DNA from: Diplocarpon mali
Lineage: Eukaryota > Ascomycota > Leotiomycetes > Helotiales > Drepanopezizaceae
Reading direction: 5' to 3'
Length of the DNA stretch: 27,687 nucleotides
Assembly: GCA_024741835.1 (NCBI GenBank)
Contig: JAENRP010000431.1
Coordinates: 1-27,687, forward strand
The translations under genes and the position numbers were made by a program. This document shows positions 3,398-27,592 of the stretch, one piece after another; the first letter of the stretch is position 1; the number at the start of each line of letters is the position of its first letter. The notes under the pieces were generated by a model that was not told where the DNA came from, searched no databases, and saw nothing but the letters and a program-made list of their open reading frames with translations.

Positions 3398-3398
3398 A

Positions 3399-5278
3399 GA
3401 ATTAAGGAACTTAAGACCCAATTTGCAAAACTCCGAATCTAAAGCTTAGAAACTAGGATTAATAATCTCTTATAGGAAAAATAGTATATTCTCTAATTTA
3501 GTAATAGGCAAAACTCGGCTACTATAAGCCAATATAATAGTTCTTATTACCAGACTCCTGCTTCTTATCATTCGGAACAACTAGCTAATATAAGAACTTA
3601 ATAGTTGATTAAAGAAGGAGAAATTAATCCTAACTAGCACTCTGCTAATATTAATACTATAGGATACTAAGGGAATAGTAATAGAAGACGACTAACCTGC
3701 AACTTTTGCAATAATAAAGAATTTAATTACGCTTTATATAAGTATTATAACAATTGCCCTCTTTTCTATTGTTTTATTAATACTAAGGTCATATATATTA
3801 ATAAGTATGAGATGCTTTATATTAGAGATCCTAGGCTAAAAGCTATCCCTATTAAAAAGTACTAGAATTACTTATAGTTATAGACTATTCGAATAATAAT
3901 ATATAGTATGAAATAGGATAAGAATTTAGTCGAACGATAGTATATTATAGATATAAATACTAAAATTCCAACTTATATATATATAGGTCCAATTAGCAAC
4001 CTACCTAAGGGAGTTCTTAAGGACCTATCTTCTGATTAAATAGCTATAGAAGTTAAAGGTATCTCTATCTTAGGATAGGTTAATAATAATATATCTATTA
4101 ATATTAATGCTGCTTCTGTATTTAGAAACCCTTAGAATACTTAGCATCCTTTTAGATCTACTACTCCTTTAATACTAATAAAACCAGCTAAAGTCCAGAA
4201 ATTAATATATGCAACTTAAGAATCTTAATATAGAGTTTAAATGCTAAAAGATACTTAATAATCTAAAACTGCAGTAGATAAGGATAAAGCTAATATAGCA
4301 AACGAATTGATCAGAGATATAATAGATAAAGATGGCTTTAAGCTTAAAGATTAAGAAGTTAAAGTTATTATATAAACCCTTAACCTTAAGTAAAAGAGAT
4401 AGATATTAAAATAGGAAAAATTCATTAATAAATATACTAATTTAACCACAATAGAGAAAGTTATAAAGAATATTATAGCTTAGTAAATTAACCTTATATT
4501 TAAAGACCTATTTAATTTAATTAAACGCTTTAATAAAGTGCTAGGAAAGCATATCTTAATTGCCTTTAAAGATTTGAATAATAATAAGGAAATAGAAATT
4601 ATAATATAAAAGAACTTTAAGAAGCACTTAGCCTTAATCAAATGTCTTTAAATTACAAAAGATAAAGGAACCCAAAGGTACTATAATATTATAGTAATAG
4701 CTTTAATATCTTAGAATATCAATTGAAATTATTTAGCAGTTGCAATAAAAAGCCCTATTATTATTTATTTAATAAAAGAATTAGTTAAAGTAAAGGCTCT
4801 AATCGATTATAGTTTAAAAGTTAATACAATAACTAGAAAAGTGGCAGAAATAGCTCAATTGACAATCATTAGCAATCGACTCCTTATTTATTCAACTATC
4901 TTTAGATTGAAATACAATTTTAATAAATAGGTGAAAAATATAAAGGTTAAAGTCAAAGGAATTATTAATTATACTAACTTTCTAATAATAGAGAATTCTT
5001 TAAATAATATTCTTTTAAGAATGCCCTTTATTTTAAAATCTTAGCTAATATTTAACTATCTTAAAGATAGTCTTATAAAAGCTAATCTTTAAAATATAAA
5101 TCGATCTTTAAAAGGACAAATAGTTATTATAGGAAATATAGCCGAATTTTAGAATAAAGTTTTAAAAAACGATTAGCTAGTATAAGGGCTAGGCTTAATA
5201 CTAATAAAGGAAGGCACTTAGCAAGGAGTTATAGCAAAAGAAAGGTAAGTTTGCCGATTTTAAATAATAGCAATTTAA
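3399..5278 (+). pseudogene. Element B copy 1 gag (C-terminal part) and retropepsin protease
   Basis: The frame opens in mid-protein at the element A junction (RIKELKTQFAKL) and matches codons from 14708 of copy 2. A cysteine cluster at 3698-3757 (CNFC, then CPLF) is a nucleocapsid-type zinc finger; comparison with copy 2 (15001-15075) shows more cysteines that have become tyrosines. Downstream at about 4799-4840 the peptide ALIDYSLKVNTITRKVAEIA is a retropepsin active site in which the expected D-S/T-G has become D-Y-S. Protease is therefore in the gag frame, and RT follows in the -1 frame. The gag-frame end is taken at the stop inside the palindrome at 5277 (TAA here, TGA in copy 2). Many TAA/TAG codons show RIP. 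Confidence 0.82.
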
Positions 5279-5301
5279 CTCGCAATCTTAAACTAAGAGT
5301 C
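5277..5301 (+). repeat. GC-rich palindrome, site 3 (start of pol, copy 1)
   Basis: A more decayed copy, arms AACTCGCAATCT and AACTAAGAGTC. In the pol frame it reads LTRNLKLRVK. The gag-protease frame meets a stop in it. Confidence 0.7.
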
Positions 5302-5438
5302 AAATCTAGAATTTTAAAAAATGGTATAATCGGCGTTTTATCAGATTAATAATTAAGAAAAAAGAAAAATAAGGTAGAGAAAAGGGTTTATTTTATAAAT
5401 TTCAATAATTCGCTAATCATTTTAAAAAACCTAAAAAC

Positions 5439-5463
5439 CACTTATAAGCCGGACCTACGAGTG
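5439..5463 (+). repeat. GC-rich palindrome, site 4 (pol linker, copy 1)
   Basis: Arms CACTTATAAGCC and GACCTACGAGTG. Pol frame reads TTYKPDLRVKN. It lies before the RT domain. Confidence 0.78.
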
Positions 5464-7405
5464 AAAAATAATAAAATTACTAATAACATTTCCATTTATA
5501 TACTTTAAATTAACAACTTAGAAAATCTTTTATTTATTTTTAAAAAGGAAAATTCGGACTATTTTATAAGATTTAATAAAAAAGGAAAGAAGTAAAGAAG
5601 TATAGTACTAGCTAATATTTAAACTATATATAAAAGCAAGGCCGATAAAGTACAACTAATAGATTAGGGAATCTCTAATAGCTTAAAACCTAGAGGATTA
5701 GATAATTGGTTTAAATAAGATAAGAAGCTTCGACCTCTAAAGCTAGGTAGCAAATTCGATAAGTTTATTATAAGCAGATTTTCTAATAAACCTATCGGAT
5801 ATTAGCTAATAAAAGAACGTTTTAATATATTAAAAATTAGAAAAGACTTAATAGAGTAAGAATGCAAACTACTTTATAAAACTTTAATAAATTAAAAGGC
5901 CGCCTTAGCTTTTAATTAAATAGAACTTAGCCAGATTTGAAAAGAGGTCACGCCTTATATTAAGATTAAGATAATACCTTATAAAGCCTAGTAAGAAAAA
6001 ACATTTAAAGTCCTTAAAGCTCTTTAAGAAAAGGTAATCGAAATATTAAAGGATAAGCTAAAGTAAGGTATTCTCAAGTTCTATAATAGCCCTTATAAGA
6101 ACAAATGGTTCTTAATTACTAAGAAAGAGAAGGGAACTTATAAACTAATAATAGTAGTAGTAGAGATGAACCGAGTAACTATTAAAGATACTAACGTTCT
6201 TTTAAATATAGATAAGTTCTTAAATGAATTTATAAAATTAACCTATAGCTCTCTTATTAACTTCTTCTTTAAATATAACCAATTTATTCTTAATATTAAA
6301 TTAAGAGATATAATAGCAATTCAAACTCCTCTTAAGCTACTTTAGATAATAAGATTACCTTAAGAGGCTATAAATTCGATTGCTCAATTTATTTAAATAA
6401 TCTATAAGATACTAATAGATTATATACCTAATATTACGCTCCCTTATATAAATAATATAAGAGTAAAAGGATTAAGATCATTCTATAACTATAAAGAAGT
6501 TCTTCCTAATATATAATAATTTATAATAGAATATATTTAAAATTTAGATTAAGTGCTTATATAATTCGAAAGGGCAAAAGCAATAGTTAGTCCGAAGTTA
6601 TAATACTATCTTCTATCGATAGAAATTGTTAGTTTTATTACTAATTCCAATAGCCGAAGTCCTTAAAAGGCTAAAGTACTTAAAATCGATAAATAGAAGA
6701 GGTATAATAATATAGCAAAAGCTCGCGCATTTATTAGCATTATAGTATACTATTACATTTAGATCAAGGATTTCGCTAAAAAGGCAGCACCTATTTACGT
6801 CTTATTTTAGAAAAAGGCTGAGTTTCAATAGGAAGAACCTTAAATAAAGGCTATAAAACAACTGAAGCAAGCGTTGCTTAAAGCGCTATATCTAATTAAA
6901 ATAGACTATAGAGTTAACGCTAGGCCAATTATACTAATAGTTAATATAAACTTAATTAAATAGAGTACTATCCTTTAATAAGCTAATAGCTAATAGAAAA
7001 GACATCTAGTTTGCTTTAAAAGTAGTCTTTAAAATCTAGTAAAGATAAAGTATAATACTACTAAATAGGAATACAAAGGAGCTTTAAAAGTAATAAAAAA
7101 GATAAGAAGCGACCTCTATAGCACTTACTTTATCTTTAAAACTAATACTAAAGTACTAATAGAATAATTAAATAGAGCTGCAAGCGATCTACCTAAAGCC
7201 TTATTAATAAAATGGATTACTTAAATAAGACTAATAGACTTTAAAGTTAAATATATTCTAAGAATGAAAAACACTATTACAAACGGCCTTTTAAAAAGAA
7301 CTTGCCCTTACTCCTTTAATTTAATTAAAGAAGATAAAATAGATATTAATAAGTAGGTAGAGAATAAAGTTAATTATTTATTAATATATTGCCTTAAAGG
7401 GACTT

Positions 7406-7430
7406 GACTCCTAGTCCTAGCCCGCGAGTC
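7406..7430 (+). repeat. GC-rich palindrome, site 5 (between RNase H and integrase, copy 1)
   Basis: Arms GACTCCTAGTCC and AGCCCGCGAGTC. The pol frame meets TGA at 7405-7407 and then reads LLVLARES. This is the second exception to the usual phase. Confidence 0.75.
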
Positions 7431-8840
7431 AAATAAGAGAATTTTATTACTTAACTACTTAAGTAACTTTAAAGAAATTACGAAATTTTTAATTACACTT
7501 AAATAACTAAAGATAGTTACTCTTAAGGATTTTCAGAAATTCAAAGTTAAAGCTTTGATTTATCTAGTATAAGAAAGACGATTATTTAAAAGGAATAATA
7601 ACTCATTTCTTATACAACTCTACTTAAATAATAAAAAACTAAAGGCTAAGGCTATTTAAGATATTTATAAGGAAATTAGCTATTAAAGAGCTAAGTCCAC
7701 CTATTACCAACTCTTAAGGAAATTCTTTTAAAAGGGTTCTTTTAAGGACTATAAAGCCTTTATGAAAAGTTATATCTCTTATTAGAAACGAAAACCTAAT
7801 TATAAAGAGAATCCTCTATTCTTAACTTAGCTATTAGGCCTTTTCTATAAAGTCATTCTTAATATTATATAAGTATTAATAATTGAAAATAGGATTATAT
7901 ATTTTATTCTAATAAAGGAAGACCTATTAAGATAGCTTAAAGGATAACTATTAAGATCTGCTAACTCTAAATCTATTGCAAAGTTCCTTTAAAAAGATAT
8001 AGTCTATTGCTATAGACTTTTTAGCAGACTAACTATTAATAAAGGCCTTAAAAATAAAGGAGTAGTTAAAGCTTTTTCGTAAAAATATAATATTAAATAG
8101 GTTCAAATCTTAGCGTATAACTTGAAAGCTAATAGAATAGTAAAGCGAGGATATTGCGATATTCTTAATAAGCTATTTAAAGTTACTTATAAAGGATTTA
8201 AGAATTAGATAAAATACTTTTATAAAATACTCTTTACTTATCGAATAATAATTTATAAACTAACTAAAGTTATACCATTTTTCCTTATCTATAGTAAAGA
8301 GGTATAGCTCCCTTTTGAATCCTAATAGCTTATTTAGAGATTGTTCGATTATAGTCAAATTTAGAACCGTTTCGATTTACTTATAATAAAATGCTAATAA
8401 CTTAAGCTTTAAAATATAAATAGAAAGGAAATCATTTTGCAAAAGAAATGATATTAGGAAAAAGCTAAAGAAGCATAGGCTGCTTCTAAAGTACTTAAAA
8501 TACACTTTATTTAAAAAGATAATCTCGTCTTAGTCTACAATATTATAAGAAATATTAATATATTAGTAGATACTAAACTTAACTATTAATAACTTAGTCT
8601 ATTTAAAGTTAAGTCTAAGTAGAAAGAAAAGGGATACTATTCTCTTTAGGAACTTAATAGAGTCGATATTAAAGGAACCTTTACAGCCAATTGATTAAAG
8701 CGCTTTTATCAATGCAACTAGACCTTATTCCCCTTAGAAGACAAATTAGAAATTGATATAACCTCCGGATCTTCTATAGGAACCGACGGCAATATAAGCA
8801 ATTTTAAACCCTTAAATAAAGATTAAGATTTTTCTAACTT

Positions 8841-8865
8841 GACTTATAAGCCGGTCCTACAAGTG
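8841..8865 (+). repeat. GC-rich palindrome, site 6 (pol C-terminal tail, copy 1)
   Basis: Arms GACTTATAAGCC and GTCCTACAAGTG. Pol frame reads LTYKPVLQVKN. Confidence 0.77.
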
Positions 8866-8946
8866 AAGAATATTAAAATACCTAATTAATCGCAACCTTA
8901 AGTTATTATTTTTAAAATATCCGAAGAATATAGATAGGAATATTAA

Positions 8947-9258
8947 ACGATTTCCTAGCCTATTAATTATCCTACCTTCCTCTAATCCTTATTTTTACAT
9001 TTTTAGCAAAGTCGCCTCTTTTATTATTTAAGATATAGATCTTTTAAGATCACTTTAAATTCTTACCTACTTTAATTTATTTTACATTTTTAATATTAGC
9101 CTTTAATTATAGCATTCCTATTACTTTCTTTAAATAATAAATAAAAAGTCCAATTTCCTTAATATATATATAGTAAACCTATTGCAGCTTATATGCCCTT
9201 TTAATTCTTGCACCCTATTGAACTTTCTTATTTATACTTCTTATTTTTTATAAGTAAT
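8947..9258 (+). other. Spacer between pol and ORF3, copy 1
   Basis: About 310 AT-rich bases with no recognisable coding. A TATA-like run (TATATATATA) lies near 9162, about 97 bases before the ORF3 start, and is kept in copy 2 at about 20470. It could serve as a separate ORF3 promoter. Confidence 0.4.
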
Positions 9259-10105
9259 ATACCTTTAAAGAACTTATAAATGGTTTTATCTATAACAATA
9301 GGAGATAAATAAGCATTAGTTATAAACTTCTCTTAGGATAGCAAAGCTATTATATTATTAAAGAACTTTAAATCGACCTACGCAGCCTTAGGAGATATAA
9401 AGTAATAAAAACTCCTTTTAGCTTATACAAATACTATTAATAACCTTTCAACCTAAGTAGCCTTTGGAATTCTCTAATTTAACGACTTTCTAACCGAAGA
9501 ATTAAAACTAAAGGGAATTTCTAAAGAGGAATTCTTAGCTGATATAGATTAATATATAACCTTAGCCAATACTTTCAAAATAGACTAAGATAAAAGGAAA
9601 GAATCTATTTAATAATTAGATAATTTAGCTATTAATAAGAGAGAGGACTCTTATTTTATTTACACTTCTTAATAAATATTGATTCTAATAATAGAAGGCA
9701 AGTATTATTAAAAATTCTTAAGGAGAACACTCCTATAGCCAGAGCTATATAGATTCTTAATTTCTTTATCATTTAAGAAGGAGTAGCAAAATTCTAAAGC
9801 AATCGAATTTGCAATCGCAGATTTATAGGCTTATTTAATGCAGTACTTATAGTAGCTAATAGGGCTATAAAAAGATCAAATTAGGCTATAGATATTACCC
9901 TACCTAATAGCACTATTATTAATATGCTAAGGCTCTACGCTTTTATTTATAGTTTGCTTATTTTAAAAGAGAATTAGATTCTTATACTAAGGTTTAAATA
10001 AGATTTCTTTAATAATAAAGAAGGAAATTAGTTATTTATAATTAAGCTTGCTTTAAAATTTGCTTTTTAACTTAAAGATATAATAAGTGCTAAACTATAT
10101 AATTT

Positions 10106-10130
10106 AACTCGCAGTCCTAGATTAAGAGTT
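10106..10130 (+). repeat. GC-rich palindrome, site 7 (ORF3, copy 1)
   Basis: Arms AACTCGCAGTCC and AGATTAAGAGTT. It reads LTRSPRLRVRN in the ORF3 phase used after the 2-bp insertion. Confidence 0.75.
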
Positions 10131-11491
10131 AGAAATAAGAATTTTAAAACTGGACCTAACTTGCCTCTTATTAAAATAATTCTAGAAACTGCTGCTAAAT
10201 AAACTGCCTAAATGCTTAGCGCAGCCTCTTTAGAATTTTCGGAATCTTTAAAGGACTCTCCTTTAGTTAAACGACCTATTTTAGCTTGACCTTTAAAAAG
10301 GATAGATTATTTAATAGCTACCTTAGCTAATTTGCAATTTAAAACTAAAGGATTGCGCGCTTACTTAGACTCCTTTCCTAATAACTTAAAGGAGCTAGTT
10401 CTTAACTTCTTTATATTTATATGCAACCGTTTTAGAAATGATAATATAAGGGAAGATCCTATTCCTATTACTCTAAAGACGACTAAGAGAGCTATTAAAT
10501 AAATTCAATAGCTTATCTTAAATGAGTTTGCCTTTATAAATATTATTTAATTCTTTAATAATTATAAAAGTTAAGAACCTAGTCTCTTAGATACTAAGCG
10601 AGACTATTTTATCTTATAAGAAAGAGAACGCAAAAAGGAATCTATTGATTAAGATATTTATAATTATAGCAATATGCCTTAATCGGTTATTCTTAACCTT
10701 AAGCTTAAAGAATAATATAATATTTAAGTATCCTTTATAATAAAGACTTGCTTTTGATAGTATCTTCTTAGTATAGGAATCGAAGGGAGAAGACTTTACG
10801 ACCTTTATATTCGCTCTCTTTTAATTTACTATAATCTTAATTATAAAGGATTTGATATTAATAAAACTATTAAATACTTCAAACTTCTTTATATAATAGA
10901 AGATATCGATCTTTTTCTAATCTACTTTAATAATCAGTTCTTTATCTCTTTAAAGATATGCAAATCTAACCTATTAATAATAGAGGCATCTCTAGGTGCT
11001 ATAAAATTCAAGGCTGATCTTAAAGCTTTAAAGGCGTTAAAGCCAATTGAATGGAATAATTCTTTCTTTTCAATATTATTAAGCAATAAATAGTAAGAGG
11101 AAATAGAAGAAGAAAGGTCAATTAGAATGCCTGAACCCTTCAGATACTGCTTTCTAACCGACAATTTTACTATTAATAATAGTGCTTTTATAAGTATATT
11201 CCTCTCTATTATAAGATAAGAAGTAGAGATATACCTTTATTACTTCTACCTTATGGATAATGTGACCTTTATATCTTCTTATTTTCTTTATAATATAATA
11301 TTCAATCTTACTTAATAAGTCCTTTAGATATATTATAGACTCTACCTCTTAACTATAATAGCGAAAAGTAGAGGAGCCTATTAGTTTATAGCCTACCCCG
11401 AACCTCCTTAATTGATTAGCCTTAGTCTTTATAATTAAGTTATTTCGATAAAAAGGGATATAAGTACTACTAATAAAGAAATTCCGATTTT

Positions 11492-11516
11492 CACTTACAG
11501 TCCTGGCCTATAAGTC
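11492..11516 (+). repeat. GC-rich palindrome, site 8 (ORF3, copy 1)
   Basis: Arms CACTTACAGTCC and GGCCTATAAGTC. It reads FTYSPGL-stop-VN in the ORF3 phase. Confidence 0.75.
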
Positions 11517-12376
11517 AATTTTATTAGAAAGCAAGTCTTAGATTATTAAATCCTATTGATCAGATAAGGGCTATCTTTTGAAAGCTTTAATAGGTAGGTC
11601 GGCTCTTAATCGAATATAAAACTCACTCTATTTATAAAGAAGATAAGTCGATAGACTTCTTAAGCACTTAGTTTAAAATCTTAGCTAGCTTATATAATTG
11701 TAAAAATAAAGTAAAAAGAGATCTTACAACCTATTATTAATAATAGTAACCCTATTATAGTAATAATAAAATAAGAGCACCTTTTTAAAATGCGCTTAGA
11801 CAAACTTTATAGAATTAGTAGCTTTATAGCCTTTTATAATAACTATATAGCTATTTGCAATAAGAATACCTTGGAAAATAAGACTCGAATCTCTAATCTT
11901 ATCTTTTCAGTCTCTGCTTTAAAGTAACTTTTAATACCTTAATAGATTAATATAAGTAGAACTACTATACCTTTTAAGGCAGCTTTTTATCTTAAGAACT
12001 ATAGTAGCCTTTTTAAAGCTATTATTAATCGGCACTCTTAGATAGATCCTTTTATTATAATCGAAGTATAGGAGTTGTTCCTTTTTAATAAGGACAAATT
12101 GAAAATCCACCTTATAGAATATAATTAAAAACTCTTTAACGCCCTTATTAAGGCCTAGACGAATATTATAAATACTAAGTCGCTTCTTTATAGACTTAAG
12201 TCTTAAGGATAATGCGATAAAGTAAATGCTATCTAAGAGCCTGATGTACTAATTGATAAAGGCCTTATTATAAGAAAATTTGGAAAAGAAACAAATTAAA
12301 ACGCTAGTATAATATCAGACCCTGATTTGGGAACTAATCCCCTGTTTTTACCCTTAAGCTTAGAAATGCTAAGACT

Positions 12377-12401
12377 GACTCGTAAGCCCAGCCTGCGAGT
12401 A
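12377..12401 (+). repeat. GC-rich palindrome, site 9 (ORF3 C-terminus, copy 1)
   Basis: Arms GACTCGTAAGCC and AGCCTGCGAGTA. One of the best-preserved copies, reading LTRKPSLRVRL in frame. Confidence 0.82.
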
Positions 12402-12578
12402 AGGTTAGACTCAGCTAGCTTTAGCCTATAAGATAGTTCGGATGAACTTCGGCCACTAAACCTAAGGGTATAAACAGAGGTTCCTTTAATAGAGACACCT
12501 AAATTAGAGAAATCGCCAAGAGGTAAGAACTAATACAAGAGAAGAAGACTTTAAAGTAATAATAGAACTGATAATTGA

Positions 12579-12735
12579 GTTAAGCAATTTAGAGAATCTA
12601 GCCTATTACAGTTGGAAAAGACCATTTGGAGAACTTACGAATTCGAGTTAAATCTTTTTTAAGGATTATCTACTTTCTATATACTAGCACCTCTTTATTC
12701 TCTATTTATTATTCTATTTTATATATATTCTTTAC
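12579..12735 (+). other. 3' region after ORF3 of element B copy 1
   Basis: These 157 bases are shared with 23885-24040 and form the right end of the B homology. They end in a pyrimidine- and AT-rich stretch. No LTR start or polypurine tract is obvious. Confidence 0.45.
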
Positions 12736-13273
12736 TCTACTATGGAGACCTAAGATGGATAGGTCTTGTGATATATATCATATGATTAGCGCAGGACAGT
12801 AGGAGGATAAAAGGGCCATCTTCTATATATAGAGATAGCGCGTATCGCTATAGTATTAAATATACCCTATACTTAGGACTTATTCCTAATATCTTATCTA
12901 AGAGAGCCCGCTTGTAGTGCTTCCTCCTTTTGTTTTTAGGTCTTCCCTTAGGCCTATTCTTATATTATTTCTCCTTTAAGTTTTATATTAGTGACCTATG
13001 CAAGGACCGATTTCTTAAGATTTCTATCCTTATACGACTTTATCGATCTCTTAGTTCGCAGATAAGAGACTGGCCTTTAAAATACGTCTTTGAAACACTT
13101 ATAGCATTTTAATCAACTTTAAAACCCTTATCCTTAATCGCCTAGTTACTTAGAACTATCGATTTTTATTTAGCAACTATTAACAACCTTAGATTTTCCC
13201 TTTTCGGCTCTGCTTTAAAAACCCTTATTTTCTTCCTTAACTTTAAGATTCTCGGAATTTTCGGCTTTTCAAT
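12736..13273 (+). other. Unique spacer before gag of copy 2; possible LTR or 5' region of element B
   Basis: This stretch has no match elsewhere in the window and keeps more C and G than its surroundings, with GCGC-type words intact. It contains a perfect 7-bp stem at 12746-12766 (AGACCTA / TAGGTCT), the palindrome TGATATATATCA at 12769-12780, a TATA-like CTATATATAG at 12823-12832 and a stem at 12835-12851 (ATAGCG / CGCTAT). The promoter-like make-up and the place just before gag fit a 5' LTR or leader. A TG...CA unit from about 12768 to 13107 is possible. No second copy exists after B copy 2, so LTR status is unproven. Confidence 0.4.
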
Positions 13274-13658
13274 ATGAAAAGTTTAATAAACCCTATAATA
13301 GTAATCTCAAATAGCGGTAGTTTTAAGTACTTAAGTAATACTAAGCGCAAACTCCAATAGGAAGTGCCTCTTTAGAATCTTTAGAAATCCGAATCTGATA
13401 ATTCAACCGCTTTAGCTTAATAGAACTTTAAAAATTGCCTTAAAATCGTCTTTAGAAACCCCTTTATTTTAAAGACTAATAGGAATTGGCCTAAAGGCTA
13501 AGAAGAATCTTAAATATAAACCTTATCTTAGAAATTAGTCTTAGATTAAGTAAACCTTATCTTATTGCAATTAGTTGCAATACTCTTATTAGCTATTTAA
13601 TACTCATTTAAAATCTTTTAATAAACTTAGATTAAACTTTTAATAGAATTCGGAATTC

Positions 13659-13683
13659 TACTCTTAGGCCTGGCCTATAAATG
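13659..13683 (+). repeat. GC-rich palindrome, site 1 (gag, copy 2)
   Basis: Arms TACTCTTAGGCC and GGCCTATAAATG around a central T. The gag frame reads it as LLLGLAYK and then meets a TGA at 13682. This is one of two sites not in the usual reading phase. The counterpart in copy 1 is outside the window. Confidence 0.7.
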
Positions 13684-14667: not shown

Positions 14668-14692
14668 TACTCGTAGGCCCGACTTAAGAGTA
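14668..14692 (+). repeat. GC-rich palindrome, site 2 (gag, copy 2)
   Basis: Arms TACTCGTAGGCC and GACTTAAGAGTA around C. In the gag frame it reads FTRRPDLRVR. It lies a few bases left of the point where element A interrupts copy 1. Confidence 0.75.
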
Positions 14693-16583: not shown

Positions 16584-16608
16584 GACTCGCAGTCCTAGAC
16601 TAAGAGTC
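16584..16608 (+). repeat. GC-rich palindrome, site 3 (start of pol, copy 2)
   Basis: Arms GACTCGCAGTCC and AGACTAAGAGTC. Pol frame: LTRSPRLRVK. It supplies a TGA (16583) to the gag-protease frame. Confidence 0.78.
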
Positions 16609-16745
16609 AAATCTGGAATTTTGAAAAATAGTACAATCGGCGTTTTATTAGCTTAATAATTAAGAAAAAAGAAAAATAAAGTAGAAAAGAGAGTTCGTTT
16701 TATAAATTTCGATAATTTACTAATCATTTTAAAAAACCTAAAAAC

Positions 16746-16770
16746 CACTTATAAGCTAAACCTATAAGTG
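16746..16770 (+). repeat. GC-rich palindrome, site 4 (pol linker, copy 2)
   Basis: A strongly RIP-altered counterpart, arms CACTTATAAGCT and AACCTATAAGTG. It is in the same pol phase, with one TAA replacing the R codon. Confidence 0.7.
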
Positions 16771-18712
16771 AAAAATAATAAAATTACTAATAACATTTCC
16801 ATCTATACACTTTAAATTAATAACTTAGAAAATCTTTTAATTATTTTTAAAAAGGAAAATTCGAATCGTTTTATAGGATTTAATAAAAAAGGAAAGAAGC
16901 AAAGAAGTATAGTATTAGCTAATATTTGAACTATATATAAAAGCAAGGCTAATAAAGTACAACCAGTAGATTAGGGAATCTCTAATAGCTTAAAGCCTAG
17001 AGGATTGGATAATTAGTTTAAATAAGATAAGAAGCTTCGACTTCTAAAGCTAAGTGGCAAATTCGATAAGTTTATCATAAGCAGATTTTCTAATAAACCT
17101 ATTAGATATCGATTAATAAAAGAACGTTTCGATATGCTAAAAATTAAAGAAGACTTAATAAAGCAAGAACGCAAACTACTTTATAAAACCTTAATAAATC
17201 GAAAGGACGCCTTGGCTTTTAATTAAACGGAACTTAGTTAGATTTAAGAAGAGGTCACGCCTTATATTAAGATTAAGATAATACCCTACAAAGCCTAGCA
17301 AGAGAAAACATTCAGGGTCCTTAAAGCTCTTTAAGAAAAGGTAATCGAAATATTAAAGGATAAGCTAAAGCAAGGTATTCTCAAGTTCTATAATAGCCCT
17401 TATAAGAATAAATAGTTCCTAATTGCTAAGAAGGAAAAGGGAACTTATAAACTAATAATAGTAGTAGTAAAGATGAACCGAGTAACTATTAAAGATGCTA
17501 ACGTTCCTTCGAATATAGATGAGTTCTTAAATAAATTCGTAAGATTAACCTATAGCTCTCTTATTAACTTCTTCTTTAGATATAACCAATTCATTCTTAA
17601 TATTAAATCGAGAGATATAATAGCAATTTAAACCCCTCTTAAGCTACTTCAGATAATAAGATTACCTTAAAGGGCTATAAATTCGATCGCTTAATTTATC
17701 TAAGTAATTTATAAAATACTAGTAGATTGTATACCTAATATTGCGCTCCCTTATATAAACGATATAAGAGTAAAAGGATTAAGATCATTTTATAATTATA
17801 AAGAAGTTCTCCTTAGTATATAACGATTTATAATAAAATACATTTAAAACCTAGACTAGGTACTTATACGATTCGAAAGGGCAAGAGCAACAGTTAGTCC
17901 GAAGTTATAATACTATCTCCTATTAATAGAAATTATTAGTTTTATTACTGATTCTAATAGCCGAAGTCCTTAAAGGGCTAAAGTACTTAAAATCGACAAA
18001 TAGAAGAGGTATAATAATATAGCAGAAGCTCGCGCATTTATTAGAGTTATAGTATACTATTGCATTTGAATTAAGGATTTTACTAAAAAGGCAGTACCTA
18101 TTTACTCCTTATTTTAGAAAGGGGCTAAGTTTTAATAAGAGAAACCCTAAATAGAGGCTATAAAACAATTAAAGCAAGCGTTGCTTAAGGCGCCTTATCT
18201 AATCAAAATAGACTATAGAGCCGACGCTAGCCTAATTATACTAATAGTTAACGCAAGCTTAATTAGATAAGGTGCCGTCTTTTAATAAGTTGATAGCTAG
18301 TAGAAAAGACATCTAGCTTGCTTTAAAAGTGGTCTTTAGAATCTAGTAGAGATAAAGTATAATACTATTAAATAGGAATATAAAGGCGCTTTAAAGGCAA
18401 TGAAAAAGATAAGAAGCGACCTTTATAGCACTTATTTCATTCTTAAAACCGATGCTAAAGTACTAGTAAAACAATTAAATAGAGCTATAAGCGACCTATT
18501 AAAAGCCTTGCTAATAAAATGGATTACTTAGATAAGACTAATAGACTTTAAAGTCAAATACATTCTAAAAACGAAAAATACTACTACTAACGGCCTTTTA
18601 AAAAGAACTCAGCCCTACCCTTTTAATTTGATTAAAGAAGACGAAATAGACATTAATAAGTAGGTAGAAAACGAAGTTGGTTATCTATTGATATATTACC
18701 TTAAAGGGACTT

Positions 18713-18737
18713 GATTCGCAAGCCTAGTTTATAAGTT
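18713..18737 (+). repeat. GC-rich palindrome, site 5 (between RNase H and integrase, copy 2)
   Basis: Arms GATTCGCAAGCC and AGTTTATAAGTT. The same TGA is present at 18712-18714, so it predates the duplication of element B or arose twice. Confidence 0.72.
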
Positions 18738-20147
18738 AAATAAGAGAATTTTATTACCTAACTACTTAAGTGACTCTGAAGAAATCGCGAAGTTTTTAAT
18801 CATACTTAAATGATTAAAGACAGTTGCTCTTAAGGATTTTTAGAAATTTAAAGCTAAAGCTTTGATTTATTTAATATAAAGAAGACGATTATTTAAAAGG
18901 AGCAATAACTTATTCCTTATATAACTCTACTTAAATAATGAAAAACTAAGGGCTAAGGCTATCTAAGATATTTATAAGGAAACTGGCTACTAAGGAGCTA
19001 AGTCTACTTACTACTAACTTTTGAGAAAATTCTTTTAAAAAGGCTCTTTTAAAGACTATAAAGCTTTTGTAAAGAGTTGCATCCCTTATTAGAAACGAAA
19101 ACCTAGTTGTAAGGAAAATCCCTTATTCCTAACCTAGCTATTAGGCCTTTTCTATAAAGTCAGCCTTAATATTATATAAGTACTAACTACTAAGAATAGG
19201 ATAATATATTTTATTCTAGTAAAGGAAGACCTATTAGGATAGCCTAAAGGATAACCTTTAAGATCTACTAACTTTGAATCTATTGCAAAGTTCCTTTAAA
19301 AAGACGTAGTCTATCGCTATAGACTTTTTAGCAGATTAACTATTAATAGAGGCCTTAAAAACAAAGGAGTAATTAAAGCTTTCTTATAAAAATATAGTAT
19401 TAAACGGGTTCAAATCTCAGTATATAACTCGAAAGCTAATAGAGTAGTAAAACGAGGATATTATAACATTTTTAATAGTCTATCTAAAGTTATTCGTAAA
19501 GGATTAAAGGATTAGATAAAATGCTTTTATAGAATACTCTTTGCTTATCGAACGATAATCTATAAACCGACTGGAGTTATACTATTCTTCCTTATCTATA
19601 GTAGAGAGGCACAGCTCCCTCTTAAATCCTAATAGCCTATTTAGAGATTATTCGACTATAGTCAAATTCAAAACCGTTCCGATTTACTTATAATAAGATG
19701 CTAATAACTTAAGCTTTAAGATATAGATATAGAGGAAATCATTCTGCGAAAGAAACGATATTAGGAAAAAGCTAAGGAAGCGTAAGCTGCTTCTAAAGTA
19801 CTTAAAACGCACCCTATTTAAAAAGATGATCTTATCCTAGTCTACGATATTATAAGAAGTATTAATATATTAGTAGATACTAAACTTGACTATTAATAGC
19901 TTAGTCTATTTAAGGTTAAATCCGAGTAGAAAGAAAAGGGATACTATTCTCTTTAGGAACTTAATAGAGTCAATATTAAAGGAACCTTTGCAGCCAATCA
20001 ACTAAAGCGCTTTTATTAACGCAACTAGACCTTATTCCCTTTAAAAGACGAATTAGAAATTGATATAACCTTCGAATCCTCTATAGGAACCGACGGTAAT
20101 ATAAGTAATTTTAAACCCTTAGATAAAGACTAAGATTTTTCTAACTT

Positions 20148-20172
20148 AACCCGTAAGCCGGTCTTATAAGTA
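20148..20172 (+). repeat. GC-rich palindrome, site 6 (pol C-terminal tail, copy 2)
   Basis: Arms AACCCGTAAGCC and GTCTTATAAGTA. Pol frame reads LTRKPVL and then a TAA. Confidence 0.73.
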
Positions 20173-20253
20173 AAGAATATTAAAATACCTAACTAATCGC
20201 GACCTTAAGTTATTATTCCTAAAATATCCGAAGAATGCAGATTAGAATACTAA

Positions 20254-20566
20254 ACGATTTCCTAGCCTATTAATTATCTTACCTTCCTTTAATCCTTATT
20301 TTTACCTTTTTAGCAAGGATGCCTCCTTTATTATTTAGGATATAGATCTTTTAAGATTACTTTAAATTCTTGCCTACTCTAACTTATTTTACATTCTTAA
20401 TATTAGCCTTTAATTATAGCATTCCTATTACTTTCCTTGAATAATAAATTAAAAAGTCCAATTTCCTTAATATATATATAGCAAACCTATTATAGCTTAT
20501 ATGCCCTTTTAATTCTTATATCCTATTAAACTCTCTTATTTATACTCCCTATCTTTCATAAGCAAT
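20254..20566 (+). other. Spacer between pol and ORF3, copy 2
   Basis: AT-rich stretch matching 8947-9258, with no recognised coding. The TATATATATA run at about 20470-20480 lies some 90 bases before the ORF3 start and is a candidate core promoter. Confidence 0.4.
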
Positions 20567-21411
20567 ATACCTTTAAAGAACTTACAAATGGTTTTATCTA
20601 TTGCAATAGGGGATAAATAAACACTAGTTATAAACTTCTCTTAGGACGGTAGAGCTATTGTATCGTTGGAAAACTTCAAATCGACCTACGTAGCCTTAAG
20701 GGATATAGAGTAATAAAAACTCCTTTCAGCTTACGCGAATGCTATTAATAACCTTTTAACCTAAGTGGCCCTTAGAATTCTCTAATTTGATAACTTCTTA
20801 ATTAAAGAATTAAGACTAAAGGGAATCTCTAGAGAGGAATTCTTAGCTAACGCAGATTAATATATAACCTTAGCCGACACTTTTAGAATAGACTGAGATA
20901 AAAGAGAAGAATCTATTCGACGATTGGATAATTTAGCTATTAATAAAAGAGGACTCCTATTTCGTTCGCGCTTCTTAATAAATATTAATTCTAATAATAG
21001 AAGACAAGTGTTATTAAAAATTCTTAAGGAAAACACTCCTACCGCTAGAGCTATTTAGATTCTCAATTTCTTTATTATTTAAAAAGGAGTAGTAAAATTC
21101 TAAGGTAATCAAATTTGCAATCGCAGATTTATAGGCCTATCTAATGCAGTACTTATAGCAGCTGACAAAGCTATAAAAAGATCAAATTAAGCTGCAGATA
21201 TTACCTTACTTAATAGTACTATTATTAATATACTAAGGCTCCGCGCTTCTACTTATAGTTTGCTTATTTTAAGAGAGAACTGGACTCTTATAATAGGATT
21301 TAAACGAGATTTCTTTAATAATAAAGAAGGGAATTAGTTATTTATAATTAAGTCTACTTTGAAATTCGCTTCTTAATCTAAAGATATAATAAGTATTAAA
21401 CCATATGATCT

Positions 21412-21436
21412 AACTCGCGGTCTTAGATTAAGAGTT
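21412..21436 (+). repeat. GC-rich palindrome, site 7 (ORF3, copy 2)
   Basis: Arms AACTCGCGGTCT and AGATTAAGAGTT. It reads LTRGLRLRVRN at ORF3 codon 282, just after a conserved FFNNK region that also precedes the element C palindrome at 25332. Confidence 0.77.
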
Positions 21437-22797
21437 AGAAATGAGAATTTTAAAACTGGACCTAACCTGCCTTTTATTAAAATGATTCTAGAAACTGCTG
21501 CCGAATAAACTGCCTAAACGCTTAGCGCAGCCTCTTTAGAATTTTCAGAATCTTTAAAGGACTTTCCTTTAGCTAAATAACCTATTTTAACTTAACCTTT
21601 AAAAAGGATAGATCATTTAATAGCCACCTTAGCTGATTTGCGATTTAAAACTAAAGGATTGCGCGCTTGCTTAGACTCCTTCCTTAATAACTTAAAGGAG
21701 CTAGTTCTTGACTTCTTTATATCTATATACAACTATTTTAAAAATGATAATATAAGAGAAGACCCTATTCTTACTACTTTAAAGATAATTAAAAGAGCTA
21801 TTAGATAGATTTAATAGCTTATCTTAAATAAGTTTGCTTCTATAGATATTATTTAATTCTTTAATAATTATAGAAGTTAAGAACCTAGTCTCTCGGATGC
21901 TAAGCGAGACTATTTTATCTTATAAGAAAGAGAATATAAAGAGGAATCTATTAATTAGGATATTTGTAATTATAGTAACGTGCCTCAATCGGTTATTCTT
22001 AACCTTAAGCTTAAAGAACGATATAATATTTAAGTGTCCTCTATAATAAAGACTTGCTTTTAATAGTATCTTCTTAGCGCAGGAATCGAAGGGAGAAGAC
22101 TTTGCGACCTTTATATTCGCTCTCTTTTAATTTACTATAGTCTTAATTATAAAGGATTTAATATTAACGAAACTATTAAATACCTTAAACTTCTTTATAT
22201 AGTAAAAGATATTGATCTTTTTCTAATTTACCTTAATAATTAGTTCTTCGTCTCTTTAAGGATACGCAAATCCAACCTATTAATAATAGAGGCATCTTTA
22301 GGTACTATAAAATTTAGGGCTGATCCTAAAGCCTTAAAGGCATTAGAGCCGATTAAATGGAATAATTCTTTCTTTTTAATATTATTAAGCAATAAATAGC
22401 AAGAGGAAATAGAGGAAGAAGGGTCAATTGTAATGCTTGAACCCTTCGGATGCCGCTTCCTAACTGACAATTTTACTACTAATAACAGTGCTTTTATAAG
22501 TATATTCCTCTTTATTATAAGATAAGAAGTAGAGATATACCTTTATTACTTCTACCCTATGGATAACGCAACCTCTATACCTTCTTATTTTCTTTATAAT
22601 ATAATATTTAGCCTTATTTAATAAGTCCTTCGGATATATTATAAACTCTACCTCTTAATTATAATAGCGAAAAGTAGAGGAGCCTATCAGCTTATAGCCT
22701 ACCTTAAACCTTCCTAATTGATTGGCCTTAGTCTTTACAATTAAGTTGTTTTAATAAAAAGAGATATAAGTGCTATTAATAAAGAAATTCCGATTTT

Positions 22798-22822
22798 CAC
22801 TTGCGGTCCTAGCCTGCGAGTT
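22798..22822 (+). repeat. GC-rich palindrome, site 8 (ORF3, copy 2)
   Basis: Arms CACTTGCGGTCC and AGCCTGCGAGTT. It reads FTCGPSLRVN at ORF3 codon 744 and corresponds to element C site 26746. Confidence 0.8.
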
Positions 22823-23682
22823 AATTTTATTAGAAAGCAAGTCTTAGATTATCAGATCCTATCGATCGGATAAGGGCTAGCTTTTAAAAGCCTTAATAGG
22901 TAGGTCGGCTCTTAGTCGACTATAAAACTTACTCTATTTGCAAAGAAGACAAGTCGATAGACTTCTTAAGCACTTAGTTTAAAATCTTAACTAGCTCAAA
23001 TGACCGTAAAGTTAAAGCGAAAGGAGATCTTGCAACCTATTACTAATAATAGCAATCTAATTATAGTAATAATAAAATAGGGATACCTTTTTAAAATGCT
23101 TTCGGACAATTCTTATAAAACTAGTAGTTTTATAGCCTTTTATAATAACTATATAGCTGCCCTTAATAAGAATACCTTAGAAAATAAGACTCGAATCTCC
23201 GATTTTGTCTTTTTAGTCTCTGCTTTAAAGCAACCTCTAATACCTTGATAGATTAATGCAAGTAGAACTACTGCACCTTTTAAAGCAGCTTTTCATCTTA
23301 AGAACTATAGTAGCCTCTTTAAAGCTATTATTAATCGACGCTCTTAAATGGATCTATCGGTTATAATTAAGGTATAGGAGTTATTTCTTCTTAATAAAGA
23401 CGAATTGAAAATCCACTTTGCAAAATATAATCAAAAGCTCTTCAACGCCCTTATTAAGGCCTAGACGAATATTATAAACACTAAGTTGCTTCTTTATAGA
23501 CTTAAGTCTTAAGGATAGTATAATAAAGTAAATGCTATCCAAGAGCCTAATATACTAATTAATAAAGGCATTATTATAAGAAAATTCGGAAAAGAGACGA
23601 ACTGAGACTCTAGTATAGTATTAGACCCTAATTTGGGAACCAATCCCCTGTTTTTACCCTTAAGCTTAGAAATACTAAGACT

Positions 23683-23707
23683 GACTCGCGAGCCTAGCCT
23701 ATAAGTA
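23683..23707 (+). repeat. GC-rich palindrome, site 9 (ORF3 C-terminus, copy 2)
   Basis: Arms GACTCGCGAGCC and AGCCTATAAGTA. It reads LTREPSL-stop-VRL at ORF3 codon 1039 and corresponds to element C site 27568. Confidence 0.8.
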
Positions 23708-23884
23708 AGGTTGGACTCGGCTAGCTTAAACCTACGAGATAGTTCGGATGAACCTCGGTCACCAAACCTAGGGGTATAAATAGAGGTTCCTTTAATAGAG
23801 GTACCTGAATTAGAGAAATCGCTAAGAGGTAAGAACTAATATAAGAGAAGAAGACTCTAAAGTGATAATAGAACCGACAATTGA

Positions 23885-24040
23885 GTTAAGCAATCTAGGG
23901 AATCTAGCCTATTACCCTTAGAAAAGACCATTTAAAGGACTTACGAATTCGAATTAAATCTTTTTTAAGATTATCTACTTCCTAAATGCTAGCACCTCTT
24001 TATTCTCTATTTATTATTCTATTTTATATATATTCTTTAC
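23885..24040 (+). other. 3' region after ORF3 of element B copy 2
   Basis: Matches 12579-12735 and ends at the same TATTCTTTAC. Beyond 24040 the sequence is unrelated to what follows copy 1, so this marks the right end of the repeated unit or a junction with element C. Confidence 0.5.
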
Positions 24041-24444
24041 TTTATTTCATTCTTTATATAATCTATCCTTTAATTATTTCCTTTATATACAACTTTCTAA
24101 TGCTTACCTTTAAAATATCATCCTTACTTTTAATAATTGTTATTTACTAATTATAGGTCCTTATATATATTATACCCTACTTTTATTCCCACTTCCAAGC
24201 TCATTATACCTACTTTTCCTTTGTATACTAGTGCGATTCCAAACTCTATAAATAAGCCTCTTCCCGCATTACAATTTTACTTTTTTTTACTTTTTCTATA
24301 ACCCTACTAGACCTATAATACCAGTACTACTACTATTATCCGTCTATTATCAATCTTTTCTAGTATAAGCCTCTTATATCGATTAATCTTTCCTAATAAT
24401 CATCTACTCGTTTAGCTCTACATTTCTTAATAAGCTGATTCACT
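24041..24444 (+). other. Upstream region of the element C gene
   Basis: About 400 AT-rich, pyrimidine-biased bases without recognisable coding. It contains the TATA-like box at 24247. It shows no visible similarity to the region ahead of ORF3 in element B or to 12736-13273. Confidence 0.4.
24247..24254 (+). promoter_or_regulatory. TATA-like box upstream of element C gene
   Basis: TATAAATA, preceded by CTC and followed by GCCTCTTCCC, stands out from the surrounding run of T and C. It lies about 190 bases before the proposed start. This fits a fungal core promoter, but chance is possible in AT-rich DNA. Confidence 0.4.
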
Positions 24445-25331
24445 ATAGCGCCCCTGAACTCATCTAAGAAAGCCATACTTAAGAAGAGCATAGCAGTTAT
24501 TGCCTTAGGCAGCAAATCCCTAAGCACTCCTAATAATAAACTAATATTAGAAGGAGGATTTTCTTAAGATAGAAAAGCTCTAAGATCATTAAAAGATATA
24601 ATAACCACCTATAGAACGTTAGGCGAAATAGAATAATAGGTATTCTTAAACTCATCTATTAATATACTTAATTATAGGATTTCCGCTATAAAAGAAGGAT
24701 TTCTAAAGTTTAATAACTTCCTCGATAATAAACTCAAGATTAAAGGTATCAACTATAAGAAATTTTTATAAGACTACTAAAGGTATGCCAACTTAATGGA
24801 TTTATTTCGAAAGAACCGAGATAAGAAAGATAAATATATAAAGAAGCTAAGACAATTTATTAAAGGCACCTAAGGCATGCTTTTCCAAAGTCACTTCATA
24901 AATAACATCACCGCTAATAACGCCTTATAAGGGCTTAGTAAAATCTTTAAAACCTACTAACCTATAGCAAAGGCCATATAAGTATTAAACTATTTTATAA
25001 TATAAGAGGGTATAAAGAAACTCTAAGGAAATAGCATAAGAAGTAGAAAGTTCATAGGGTTCTTAAGCACTATTATATACTCTACTATTCAAACTATAAA
25101 AGATAATCCTTTATAGTATAATAATTTCGCACTTCTTAACTAAACTGTTCTAAATACCCTTAGCTTTTAATAATCATAATGCAGACTGCTTATTATAAAA
25201 GAAAAGATGATTTACTTAGCTAAGTATATAATAAACTTCTTTAATAATAAGTTAAAGAGATAGGAATTTGTTGTATCCGCCGCTCTAAAGCTGCTGCCAC
25301 CTCTAGTAGAATAGACTAACGAGGAAGATTT

Positions 25332-25356
25332 GACCTATAGGCCTGGCCTATAGGTA
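25332..25356 (+). repeat. GC-rich palindrome, element C site 1
   Basis: Arms GACCTATAGGCC and GGCCTATAGGTA around T. It reads LTYRPGL-stop-VEV at codon 296 of the element C gene. Confidence 0.78.
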
Positions 25357-25517
25357 GAAGTACTATATAAGGAGGAGGTCCTTAAGCATAAGGTACCTAT
25401 AATACTAAGAATACAAATTGCTAACTATCATAACCCTTATTCATTAGACTCAGATGAGTTTAAATCGCTATCCCTAGAAATGCCCCGAATACCTCGAATA
25501 CTAGTGGCAAAGAAATT

Positions 25518-25542
25518 AACTCGCGAGCCCGGCCTGCGGGTT
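25518..25542 (+). repeat. GC-rich palindrome, element C site 2
   Basis: Arms AACTCGCGAGCC and GGCCTGCGGGTT around C. This is the least decayed copy, reading LTREPGLRVNI in frame. No matching site was seen in ORF3 of element B. Confidence 0.85.
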
Positions 25543-26745
25543 AATATATATGATAATATAAACTTAGATAATGAAATATCAGATGAAGAAAGCAATACTA
25601 TCCTTAATATGCTAAAGATTTTTAATAATAATAAGAAAGATATTACTAATATTATACAATCCTTCCCTAAGGACCTGTAAAAATTCGTCTTAAAATTCTA
25701 TAAGTTAATAATAAAACATTTAAAGAAAGAAGGTTAGAGAGAAGTTTTATTAGCATAAGAGGGAATGGCAAAGGCTGTTAAATAGATTATAAAGTTATAG
25801 TAAGACGAATTCTCTATAGATAATATCATATAGTTCTTTATTAACTATAAGAAATTGAACGGTAACTATTATATTCTTAAAGAAAAGTCAAAAGATAGCA
25901 CGACTATTATCTTTATAGAATACTATCAAGTTCCCTTTAATATTAAGATAATACTATAATATGGCGATAGGTTCAAGATTGTAGTAATACTAGAAATGAA
26001 AACAAGACTCTCTAAATTTATAATAGAAACATTCGAGGACTTTAATTTTAATAAATTCTGCGCCCTTTATAAACGATAATACGCGCAGTACTATAGGCTG
26101 GCAATAACAGGCCTTAATAATAAAGATATGTCGTCTAATATCTATAAATTTTATACTACCCCTAACCTAAAGCTGTTTTTACTATACCTAAGGAATTATG
26201 CAATTATAGCTACTAGCAATAGAATAGCAAGCTAGGTTAAGAAAGATATATTATTAAGTTTCGCTAAGTTCAAAGTAGAGCCTAAAGCTTTAAAATTATT
26301 CTATAATATCGCCTAGACTTCTGTCTAATATAGTGCCATACTGGCTAGCGATAACTTAATATCACTTTATAGCAAAGGGTTTTTAAATATGCTTAAATTG
26401 TTCAGCTGCGCTTTCTTAAGTGCTATATATATATAGTCATAGTTCTTGCGTAAAGACTTCATTTTTAGCGTTAGCATAAGAAGAACTGGAAATATACAAA
26501 CATCATTTTCGAGTATCTAATAAGAAACTAGCACTTCTATCCGCATTTCTTTATAATATAACTTACAATCTGATATAATAAATGCTAAGAATGCACTATA
26601 GATTATATCTAGGTACTCTGCTAACTTATCATAATTCTTCATACAAGCTAGTAACGTACCTTAAGCTAGTACAGTTTATAAGGATTAACCACTATACAAA
26701 AGTAGTTTCCACTAAAATTAATGCTAATACGAGATTCGTTAAATT

Positions 26746-26770
26746 GACTCCTAGGCCCGGCTTACAAGTT
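26746..26770 (+). repeat. GC-rich palindrome, element C site 3
   Basis: Arms GACTCCTAGGCC and GGCTTACAAGTT around C. It reads LTPRPGLQVII in the intact stretch 26582-26902, at codon 767. Confidence 0.83.
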
Positions 26771-27567
26771 ATTATACCTAATAATAGGACTATCGATTAC
26801 TATATAATTCTAGCAGCCAAGCAGTCTATTAGACAATTTATAATATGGGAAAAGTCGCATAAGTTATTAATCCTTATACTACCTAGGCCTAAAAATGCTT
26901 AATAGGTCTTAATAAACCTAATACAAAGTACTAATTAATAAAAAGAACTAAGTACTAAATAAAGAACGCCTTTAGAGGAATATATTTCTAATAAGACCGT
27001 TCCATTTTTAATATTTATAAGATAAGGCACATTTGTTAACCTTAAGTCTAAATAGGAACTTAGCAAAGGCGGTTTTTTAATAATTAGTAATAACTATATT
27101 AAGGTAGTTGGAAATGGAGCACTTAAGAATGGCACCGACCTAGAGGATTTTATCATTAACTCTATTAATATAAAGCGACCTTAACTTATAAGATAGAACA
27201 TTATAGGTAAATCGTCTGCTAAGTTTCGTACAACCCTTAGTATAACAAAAGGTGGCCCCCTATTAGAGGCTCTTATAGGAAAGAGACCCTAGAGCGACCT
27301 ATTAGTAGTAATGACTATAAAGGATTTATTTGCGAAAGATATAACTTAGCTAATAGTATATTTGAAGAAGTATAAATAAGAACTTTTTAAAGATTTTATT
27401 AATACCTAAAAGCTAGTTCAATAGCTAAAGCTATAATTATATAGAGATAAGTCGTAGACTAAGATAAGAGGCTCTAATAATAATATTAAGGCTAATAATA
27501 TAATTAATAAGACGATTCTATTCGAGAAGTACAGCACTAAGAAACCCTATACAAAGACACCTAATAT

Positions 27568-27592
27568 GACTCCTGGGCCCGGCCCGCAACTT
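27568..27592 (+). repeat. GC-rich palindrome, element C site 4
   Basis: Arms GACTCCTGGGCC and GGCCCGCAACTT around C. It reads MTPGPGPQLNL at codon 1041, in the part of element C least touched by RIP. Confidence 0.78.

Follow-up and report, generated by a model that had tools for sequence, protein, structure and literature searches.

A near-palindrome with a core of 27 bp recurs along a 27,687-nucleotide stretch of the genome of the fungus Diplocarpon mali (assembly GCA_024741835.1, contig JAENRP010000431.1, positions 1 to 27,687; hereafter the window), where it lies mostly inside the protein genes of retrotransposons, and in one of these genes, ORF4, its nucleotides are conserved beyond the protein, synonymous positions included. 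An earlier note on this DNA had described 20 copies at 13 distinct sites, and all of them were found; its general picture of a short palindrome in a fungus, within retroelement genes and read mainly in one phase, was borne out as well. Because copy 1 of the element Gypsy-1 repeats seven of the sites in copy 2, and the paralogous genes ORF3 and ORF4 share at least two, the window holds about 11 independent sites. We favor, at somewhat less than even confidence, the reading that an ancient repeat of linkers has passed between retrotransposons and been maintained by selection at the nucleotide level, through a mechanism that we infer.

Evidence for this reading comes from ten copies of ORF4 (mean identity 0.948), compared in a purine/pyrimidine code that is invariant under the transitions produced by repeat-induced point mutation (RIP). 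Three of the four ORF4 palindromes are free of transversions, as are 3.2% of 3,232 comparison windows, and the fourth falls in the lowest 9.4%. Columns with a transversion number 1 of 100 in the palindromes and 398 of 2,893 elsewhere (p = 1.5e-5). Changes in ORF4 show codon-position periodicity, and with locus L011 as frame reference the third positions carrying a transversion are 0 of 36 in the palindromes and 280 of 1,025 outside. At four-fold degenerate sites the counts are 0 of 18 and 88 of 213, so that conservation in ORF4 extends past the protein to the nucleotides. Restricted to positions where two or more copies have C or G, they are 0 of 12 and 51 of 113, and none of 54 outside windows (those with at least 18 columns passing this filter) is transversion-free. 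In ORF4 the palindrome is thus conserved above its flanks, unlike an inert selfish insert.

The comparison of the paralogues ORF3 and ORF4 adds a view over a longer time. Matched palindromes agree at 21, 22, and 22 of 25 positions in the two-letter code, and at 5, 7, and 7 of 8 third positions (ORF3c is paired with ORF4d by order only), while identity elsewhere is 0.72, 0.77, and 0.62 at codon positions 1 to 3. When the alignment is made with the motif masked, ORF3b coincides exactly with ORF4c, ORF3a lies within three residues of ORF4a, and ORF3c is outside the aligned part; for the ORF3b/ORF4c pair, at 31% protein identity, the palindromes agree at 22 of 25 positions. The alignment shows two palindrome sites to predate the ORF3/ORF4 duplication.

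The palindrome and its genomic distribution

The anatomy was drawn from 23 representatives of three element families (19 after removing the repeat units of one array), and the sequence is about Y-SACTC-S-YRGGCC-N-GGCCYR-S-GAGTS-R. In every representative the 25-mer has a pyrimidine just before it (-1) and a purine just after it (+1), which brings the core to 27 bp. Pairing between the arms extends over 13-14 positions about a single central base, which takes all four letters across the 23 sites; farther out, pairing is near chance, and the flanks tend to AATTY and RAA-TC (+7 is G in 11 of 19). The arms have three main states: symmetric, CC on the left with CG on the right, and the reverse of the latter. 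The two asymmetric states look like a single form in its two orientations, and phase-1 sites occur for both. TGACTC is a Gcn4-like motif, and it was considered for the ends and dropped, the first base being G at only some sites. The earlier note had cautioned that these stretches stand out partly by resisting RIP; the sequence is not RIP-proof, CGCG in the arms often being TATA. An artefact of RIP was rejected: sites and rates were scored in the transition-blind code, and RIP cannot have produced a motif that P0001 and P0002, predicted proteins of Diplocarpon coronariae, also carry.

The genome (49.4 Mb, 676 contigs) contains 315 places with the exact 23-mer ACTCNYRGGCCNGGCCYRNGAGT and 593 places matching GACTCGCNRGCCNGGCYNGCGAGTC with at most three mismatches, the reversed-pattern control giving 0 in each case. 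(In the window itself, the strict 25-mer with at most three mismatches has 2 matches, against 0.00 expected from shuffles.) Elsewhere the exact 23-mer occurs in 3 stretches of 257 Gb of prokaryote genomes and in 1 stretch of IMG/VR. We read 110 distinct exact places of the 315, a non-random set taken from the heads of the match lists. For 99 of them both flanks gave the assignment: the copia 3' site (44), the Gypsy-2 RNaseH-integrase linker (18), the copia nucleocapsid-protease linker (15), the gag of a Gypsy-1 relative (11), ORF4a (5), the copia integrase-reverse transcriptase (RT) linker (4), and Gypsy-1 gagA (2). At the same level, 22 of 2,000 random positions also pass, some of these being true sites. 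Eight further places, assigned by eye, are units of known arrays or known sites displaced by an A-run, and the last three (L082, L086, and L113), which have a weaker link, were grouped by eye in the 3' region of a Gypsy-1 relative; L082 matches the stretch downstream of ORF4 (L011, L020) at 79-80% over 66-69 bases. All 110 places read trace to three families of long terminal repeat (LTR) retrotransposons, two gypsy and one copia. In that 3' region, L082 and L086 carry a pair of palindromes separated by about 120 bp, of which one is a site absent from the window.

These counts bear on a selfish palindrome of the type of the Rickettsia palindromic element (RPE), mobile by itself and inserting into genes, which would here be found in retrotransposon genes after filtering by frame. 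We think this explanation unlikely. It accords with a short palindrome at many unrelated sites, with both orientations of the asymmetry at different sites, each with phase-1 examples, and with a phase bias that is mostly what stops alone leave. The distribution is against it: none of the 110 exact places read of 315 was traced to a host gene or otherwise outside the element families, so that there is no sign of the palindrome hopping through the genome. Neither is the palindrome confined to genes. At least two distinct sites are non-coding, a further point in favor of a mobile palindrome; one follows ORF4 (cluster 11), and the other, the commonest of all (44 of the 99 both-flank places), lies beyond the end of copia pol, an end that matches the C-terminus of the homologue P0121. 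No target duplication was found at 19 independent sites, where the flanks are symmetric rather than duplicated (although some copia sites have CAATTC on either side), and the conservation of the ORF4 palindrome above its surroundings is likewise against self-mobility. A miniature inverted-repeat transposable element or other derivative of a DNA transposon was rejected on like grounds, there being no target site duplication and only element sites among the places read.

The evidence for insertion as such is limited. For insertion in frame, ORF4b stands opposite a 20-residue gap in ORF3, which would also suit a mobile palindrome. In some places the palindrome is contained in a 45-bp tandem unit, and the Gypsy-2 RNaseH-integrase linker has 1 unit (9 copies), 2 (4), 3 (1), or 4 (1) in exact 45-bp steps, such units having been gained or lost in frame. 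Against it, relatives that lack the motif in the RNaseH-integrase linker have linkers there of 95 (P0003), 115 (P0004), 100 (P0005), and 83 (P0060) residues, compared with 85 residues for P0001 with its two units, and the protease-reverse transcriptase (PR-RT) linker of P0003 shows no motif-sized gap against that of P0060; the relatives compared have 56-60% identity, and linker lengths were measured in 65 of 120. The in-frame insertion proposed in the earlier note may hold for ORF4b and the tandem units; linkers of about equal or greater length speak against it at RNaseH-integrase and PR-RT. Among the matches listed, at least 163 copies at 13 sites have 25 bp between their flanks, with no clear empty site, most of these loci having been fetched for their palindromes; the other gap lengths listed are weak matches (one flank at 0.80-0.89) or upstream-shifted anchors that still span the palindrome. 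By eye, the arrays L047, L055, L092, and L048, from two families, consist of 45-bp units with partly similar 20-bp spacers, and copia nucleocapsid-protease has a 54-bp step instead.

Reading phase and position between domains

Phase was called from stop density in up to 180 bp on each side, from reading the protein, and from the ORF3/ORF4 alignment, and together these reproduce the earlier count of 11 of 13 window sites in phase 1. Nine sites have phase 1 on both sides (PR-RT1, PR-RT2, ORF3a-c, and ORF4a-d, with ORF3b called from the alignment, its stop counts being ambiguous). Two, gagB and the site after integrase, have it upstream, with another frame more open downstream. The remaining two are in phase 2, the RNaseH-integrase site on both sides and gagA from its downstream side, the upstream side being ambiguous. 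Phase 1 is also the best fit for two Gypsy-2 loci and two copia loci (Gypsy-2 PR-RT by the downstream side only, in two copies). Counting paralogous sites once, phase 1 is used at 13 of 15 independent coding loci of the three families, or 11 of 15 when the two sides are required to give the same phase, which against equal phases gives P = 3e-5 (0.0018 by the strict count). Phases 0 and 2 each hold stops in 12 of 23 representatives and phase 1 in 1 of 23 (some stops being made by RIP), and these stops largely explain the bias. A random choice among the stop-free phases of each site is expected to give 8.3 of 15.

In phase 1 the palindrome encodes T-[RP]-x-P-G-[PL]-R-V, often with D/N-[LSF] before it and K/N-S after it. 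Where the domains are known, it sits between them. For example, P0001 has RNaseH up to 321 and integrase H2C2 from 475, with the motifs in between at about 379-401; the RNaseH-integrase motif of the Gypsy-1 piece is likewise located between those two domains. The pattern is found in 4 of 164 returned proteins (6 hits, against about 1.0 expected from shuffled sets), namely P0001, P0002, P0060, and P0004, and in none of 44 relatives of the copia piece. In the PR-RT linker the peptide is STREPGPRV in P0060 (59% identity to the query) and TTRDPGPPV in P0004 (56%), and the same linker of Gypsy-2 (L092) holds two units. The PR-RT linker site may be shared across species. No relative of P0060 was found in IMG/VR.

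A recurring peptide in one main phase, placed between domains and present in the PR-RT linker of other elements, is what would be expected if the peptide were itself the motif, a linker or polyprotein processing site of several retrotransposons, with the DNA palindrome a by-product of its codons. We regard this as rather unlikely. Third positions in ORF4 are without transversion, yet the third base at the centre takes all four letters over 23 sites; in addition, there are non-coding sites, arms in flipped orientation, and two sites in phase 2. One particular peptide function was examined and rejected. The 2A "stop-go" consensus is D-x-E-x-N-P-G-P, and the PGP found here at many sites lacks the N and the preceding DxE, other sites having PGL, PGS, PD, or PV.

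Weighing selection on the nucleotide sequence

The favored reading, selection on the nucleotides of a repeat exchanged among retrotransposons, would work as follows. The palindrome would be copied between elements during retrotransposon replication, by template switching or by conversion among elements that share it. Two things would make it tolerable: 27 bp amount to nine flexible residues (T-R/P-x-P-G-P/L-R-V), and of the three phases, phase 1 most consistently lacks stops. Selection would act directly on the nucleotides, the simplest case being a putative site recognized by a protein, and the linker peptide would be a by-product. A more specific version, which we put forward as doubtful, would make the palindrome a putative cis-acting DNA or RNA signal common to Ty1/copia and Ty3/gypsy elements of one fungal lineage, repeated about 14 times in the largest element and written into linkers in the phase that gives a harmless peptide. 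Families of separate origin would have converged on, or exchanged, the recognition sequence of a common factor acting in assembly, packaging, expression, or escape from silencing.

Several observations weigh against this reading. In Gypsy-1 outside ORF4 and gagA there is no excess conservation (7 of 2,650 in the palindrome, 23 of 7,420 in the flanks), and the RNaseH-integrase palindrome varies more than its flanks (6 of 300 against 0 of 840). At gagA, comparison with a diverged relative gives 2 of 25 columns, one being the centre, against 64 of 438, and the flanks there show no codon periodicity. Most loci were fetched for their palindrome, a choice that favors copies intact at one site each. 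Once stops are allowed for, little is left of the phase bias (P = 0.006 for at least 13 of 15, and 0.10 for the strict 11), and the earlier note's idea of a selected phase is weakened to that extent. We know of no protein that binds the palindrome, and it is the sharing alone that would point to transfer between families. The arms show no covariation over 23 sites, 74.9% of cells pairing against 76.4% with shuffled partners; pair 7/21 is standard in only 5 of 23; and one of five sites folded as RNA is weaker than its own shuffles (z +1.1).

The last three points concern the symmetry, which is real yet imperfect, with mismatches kept per site. Sliding the partner lowers pairing to 24-39%, and the five folded sequences range from -16.7 to -4.4 kcal/mol (z from -5.5 to +1.1). 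Upkeep of a hairpin was set aside as not shown, covariation being absent and folding uneven. With imperfect symmetry and site-specific mismatches, a protein site or shared descent fits better than the maintenance of a hairpin.

A further alternative is concerted evolution, with neutral palindromes homogenized either through conversion across hundreds of copies or because quasi-palindromes are corrected when the element is reverse transcribed. The RNaseH-integrase site behaves as template switching would have it, with six transversions in two columns of the left arm (per column, three of the 12 copies) plus transitions between identical flanks, and the tandem 45-bp units are of a kind with this. 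At this site (7406; L016, L020, and L021) the transversions lie in the palindrome and the flanks agree in the two-letter code, as though one arm had been exchanged. Contrary to concerted evolution, mismatches particular to one site persist in the copies compared (C-C at pair 7/21 in ORF4c and ORF4d, for instance), which correction should erase, and we consider it improbable.

Known systems and the carrier elements

The palindrome works like a coding palindromic element, yet it is no member of the Rickettsia family. As in RPEs, a palindromic repeat stands in frame in protein genes and yields a recurring peptide, and to that extent the earlier note's comparison was apt; length and location in host genes set the two apart. 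The RPE peptide has some 30-50 residues, and the elements of Magnusiomyces capitatus mitochondria are known as byps. RPEs themselves are described as about 150 bp long and located in bacterial host genes (PMC10969869), unlike the 27-bp core found here, in the places read, only in fungal retrotransposons. They are also said to lose repeat identity over time (PMC6649704), unlike the palindrome conserved in ORF4. PARCEL, according to PMC2996958, is a palindromic coding repeat with tandem arrays and, in some taxa, a link to mobile genes, three features that recur here; its 25-residue amphipathic repeat, often in membrane-targeted proteins, differs from the 8-9 Pro/Gly-rich residues in retrotransposon linkers (a unit of 15 residues where tandem). 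Multiple palindromic elements interrupt protein genes in the mitochondria of the yeast Magnusiomyces capitatus, with translational bypassing (PMC6649704). Those elements are mitochondrial and left untranslated, unlike the present ones in nuclear retrotransposons, where the frame is mostly open and ribosomal skipping is not needed. The same source gives coding inverted repeats with perfect arms of up to 142 bp in mitochondria of Nematomorpha (PMC6649704), which are alike in persisting within coding sequence and unlike the single short imperfect sequence common to many sites here. Bacterial repetitive extragenic palindromic sequences, 20-40 bp long and in many copies (PMC3733652), are extragenic and prokaryotic, in contrast to a mainly coding palindrome in retrotransposons.

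Coding palindromes have so far come from bacteria and organelles, and no report of one in a nuclear retrotransposon was found in full-text searches of one open library, which omits most subscription papers. If the nucleotide conservation of ORF4 holds in unmutated copies and at other sites, the palindrome would be a signal common to two retrotransposon superfamilies; it would then supply a defined 27-mer with which to look for the factor recognizing it, and would show a DNA-level signal living in coding sequence by means of a tolerant phase and linkers.

The carriers are LTR retrotransposons by their RT, RNaseH, and integrase domains. The window is AT-rich and strongly marked by RIP (TpA/ApT 1.41; (CpA+TpG)/(ApC+GpT) 0.57), and no open frame of 150 aa is present in it. 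Its two Gypsy-1 copies are direct repeats, 86-93% alike and offset by about 11,306 bp. Gypsy-1 frames were read in L005, a less mutated copy, in which Pfam calls RNaseH and integrase H2C2 and leaves the mutated RT uncalled; in P0001, Pfam finds RT, RNaseH, integrase, and chromodomain-like parts. For the Gypsy-2 piece (L028, 788 residues, X at stops), P0001 and P0002 of D. coronariae are the best of 675 relatives, at 76% identity despite RIP. ORF3 and ORF4 share 29% identity over 1,063 aa (E = 9e-100, in the less mutated L005 and L011). The ORF3 piece matches no Pfam family at E 0.1, and 0 of 5,245 candidates scored as homologues, with a 380-residue query (X at stops) and candidates of limited length. 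Positions of all features are collected in the table.

Table. Retrotransposon copies and palindromes in the window.
Feature	Position	Strand	Remarks
Gypsy-1 copy 1, 5' part missing (gag end, PR-RT-RNaseH-integrase, ORF3)	3398..12739	+	repeats to 14705-24044; frames from L005
Gypsy-1 copy 2 with gag, heavy RIP mutation	13260..24044	+	start approximate
ORF4, ORF3 paralogue, continues past window end	24470..27687	+	start approximate
Palindrome, PR-RT linker site 1, copy 1	5277..5301	.	
Palindrome, PR-RT linker site 2, copy 1	5439..5463	.	
Palindrome, RNaseH-integrase linker, copy 1	7406..7430	.	phase 2; left arm of CCTAGT type
Palindrome, after integrase, copy 1	8841..8865	.	
Palindrome, ORF3 site a, copy 1	10106..10130	.	
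Palindrome, ORF3 site b, copy 1	11492..11516	.	
Palindrome, ORF3 site c, copy 1	12377..12401	.	
Palindrome, gag site A (copy 2)	13659..13683	.	phase 2 from downstream stops
Palindrome, gag site B (copy 2)	14668..14692	.	phase 1 upstream; downstream another frame more open
Palindrome, PR-RT linker site 1, copy 2	16584..16608	.	flanks symmetric, GATTT / AAATC
Palindrome, PR-RT linker site 2, copy 2	16746..16770	.	
Palindrome, RNaseH-integrase linker, copy 2	18713..18737	.	phase 2
Palindrome, after integrase, copy 2	20148..20172	.	
Palindrome, ORF3 site a, copy 2	21412..21436	.	
Palindrome, ORF3 site b, copy 2	22798..22822	.	lines up exactly with ORF4 site c in motif-masked alignment (L005, L011)
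Palindrome, ORF3 site c, copy 2	23683..23707	.	
Palindrome, ORF4 site a	25332..25356	.	counterpart: ORF3 site a
Palindrome, ORF4 site b	25518..25542	.	opposite 20-aa gap in ORF3
Palindrome, ORF4 site c	26746..26770	.	counterpart: ORF3 site b
Palindrome, ORF4 site d	27568..27592	.	

Positions 1-3300 of the window are AT-rich, and palindrome scans gave no copy there. A gypsy element of another family (L090, 1,650 bp, RT into integrase) has no palindrome. Gypsy-1 copy 1 begins within gag, and by eye the sequence upstream of 3398 seems not to resemble copy 2 (3300-3400 compared with 14600-14705). The ORF3/ORF4 regions occupy 9300-12600, 20600-24000, and 24470-27687. The first ORF4 palindrome stands 1,644-1,659 bp from the last ORF3 palindrome in the window, L011, L015, and L016, and one large gypsy element, some 15 kb long as judged from spacing, carries both ORF3 and ORF4.

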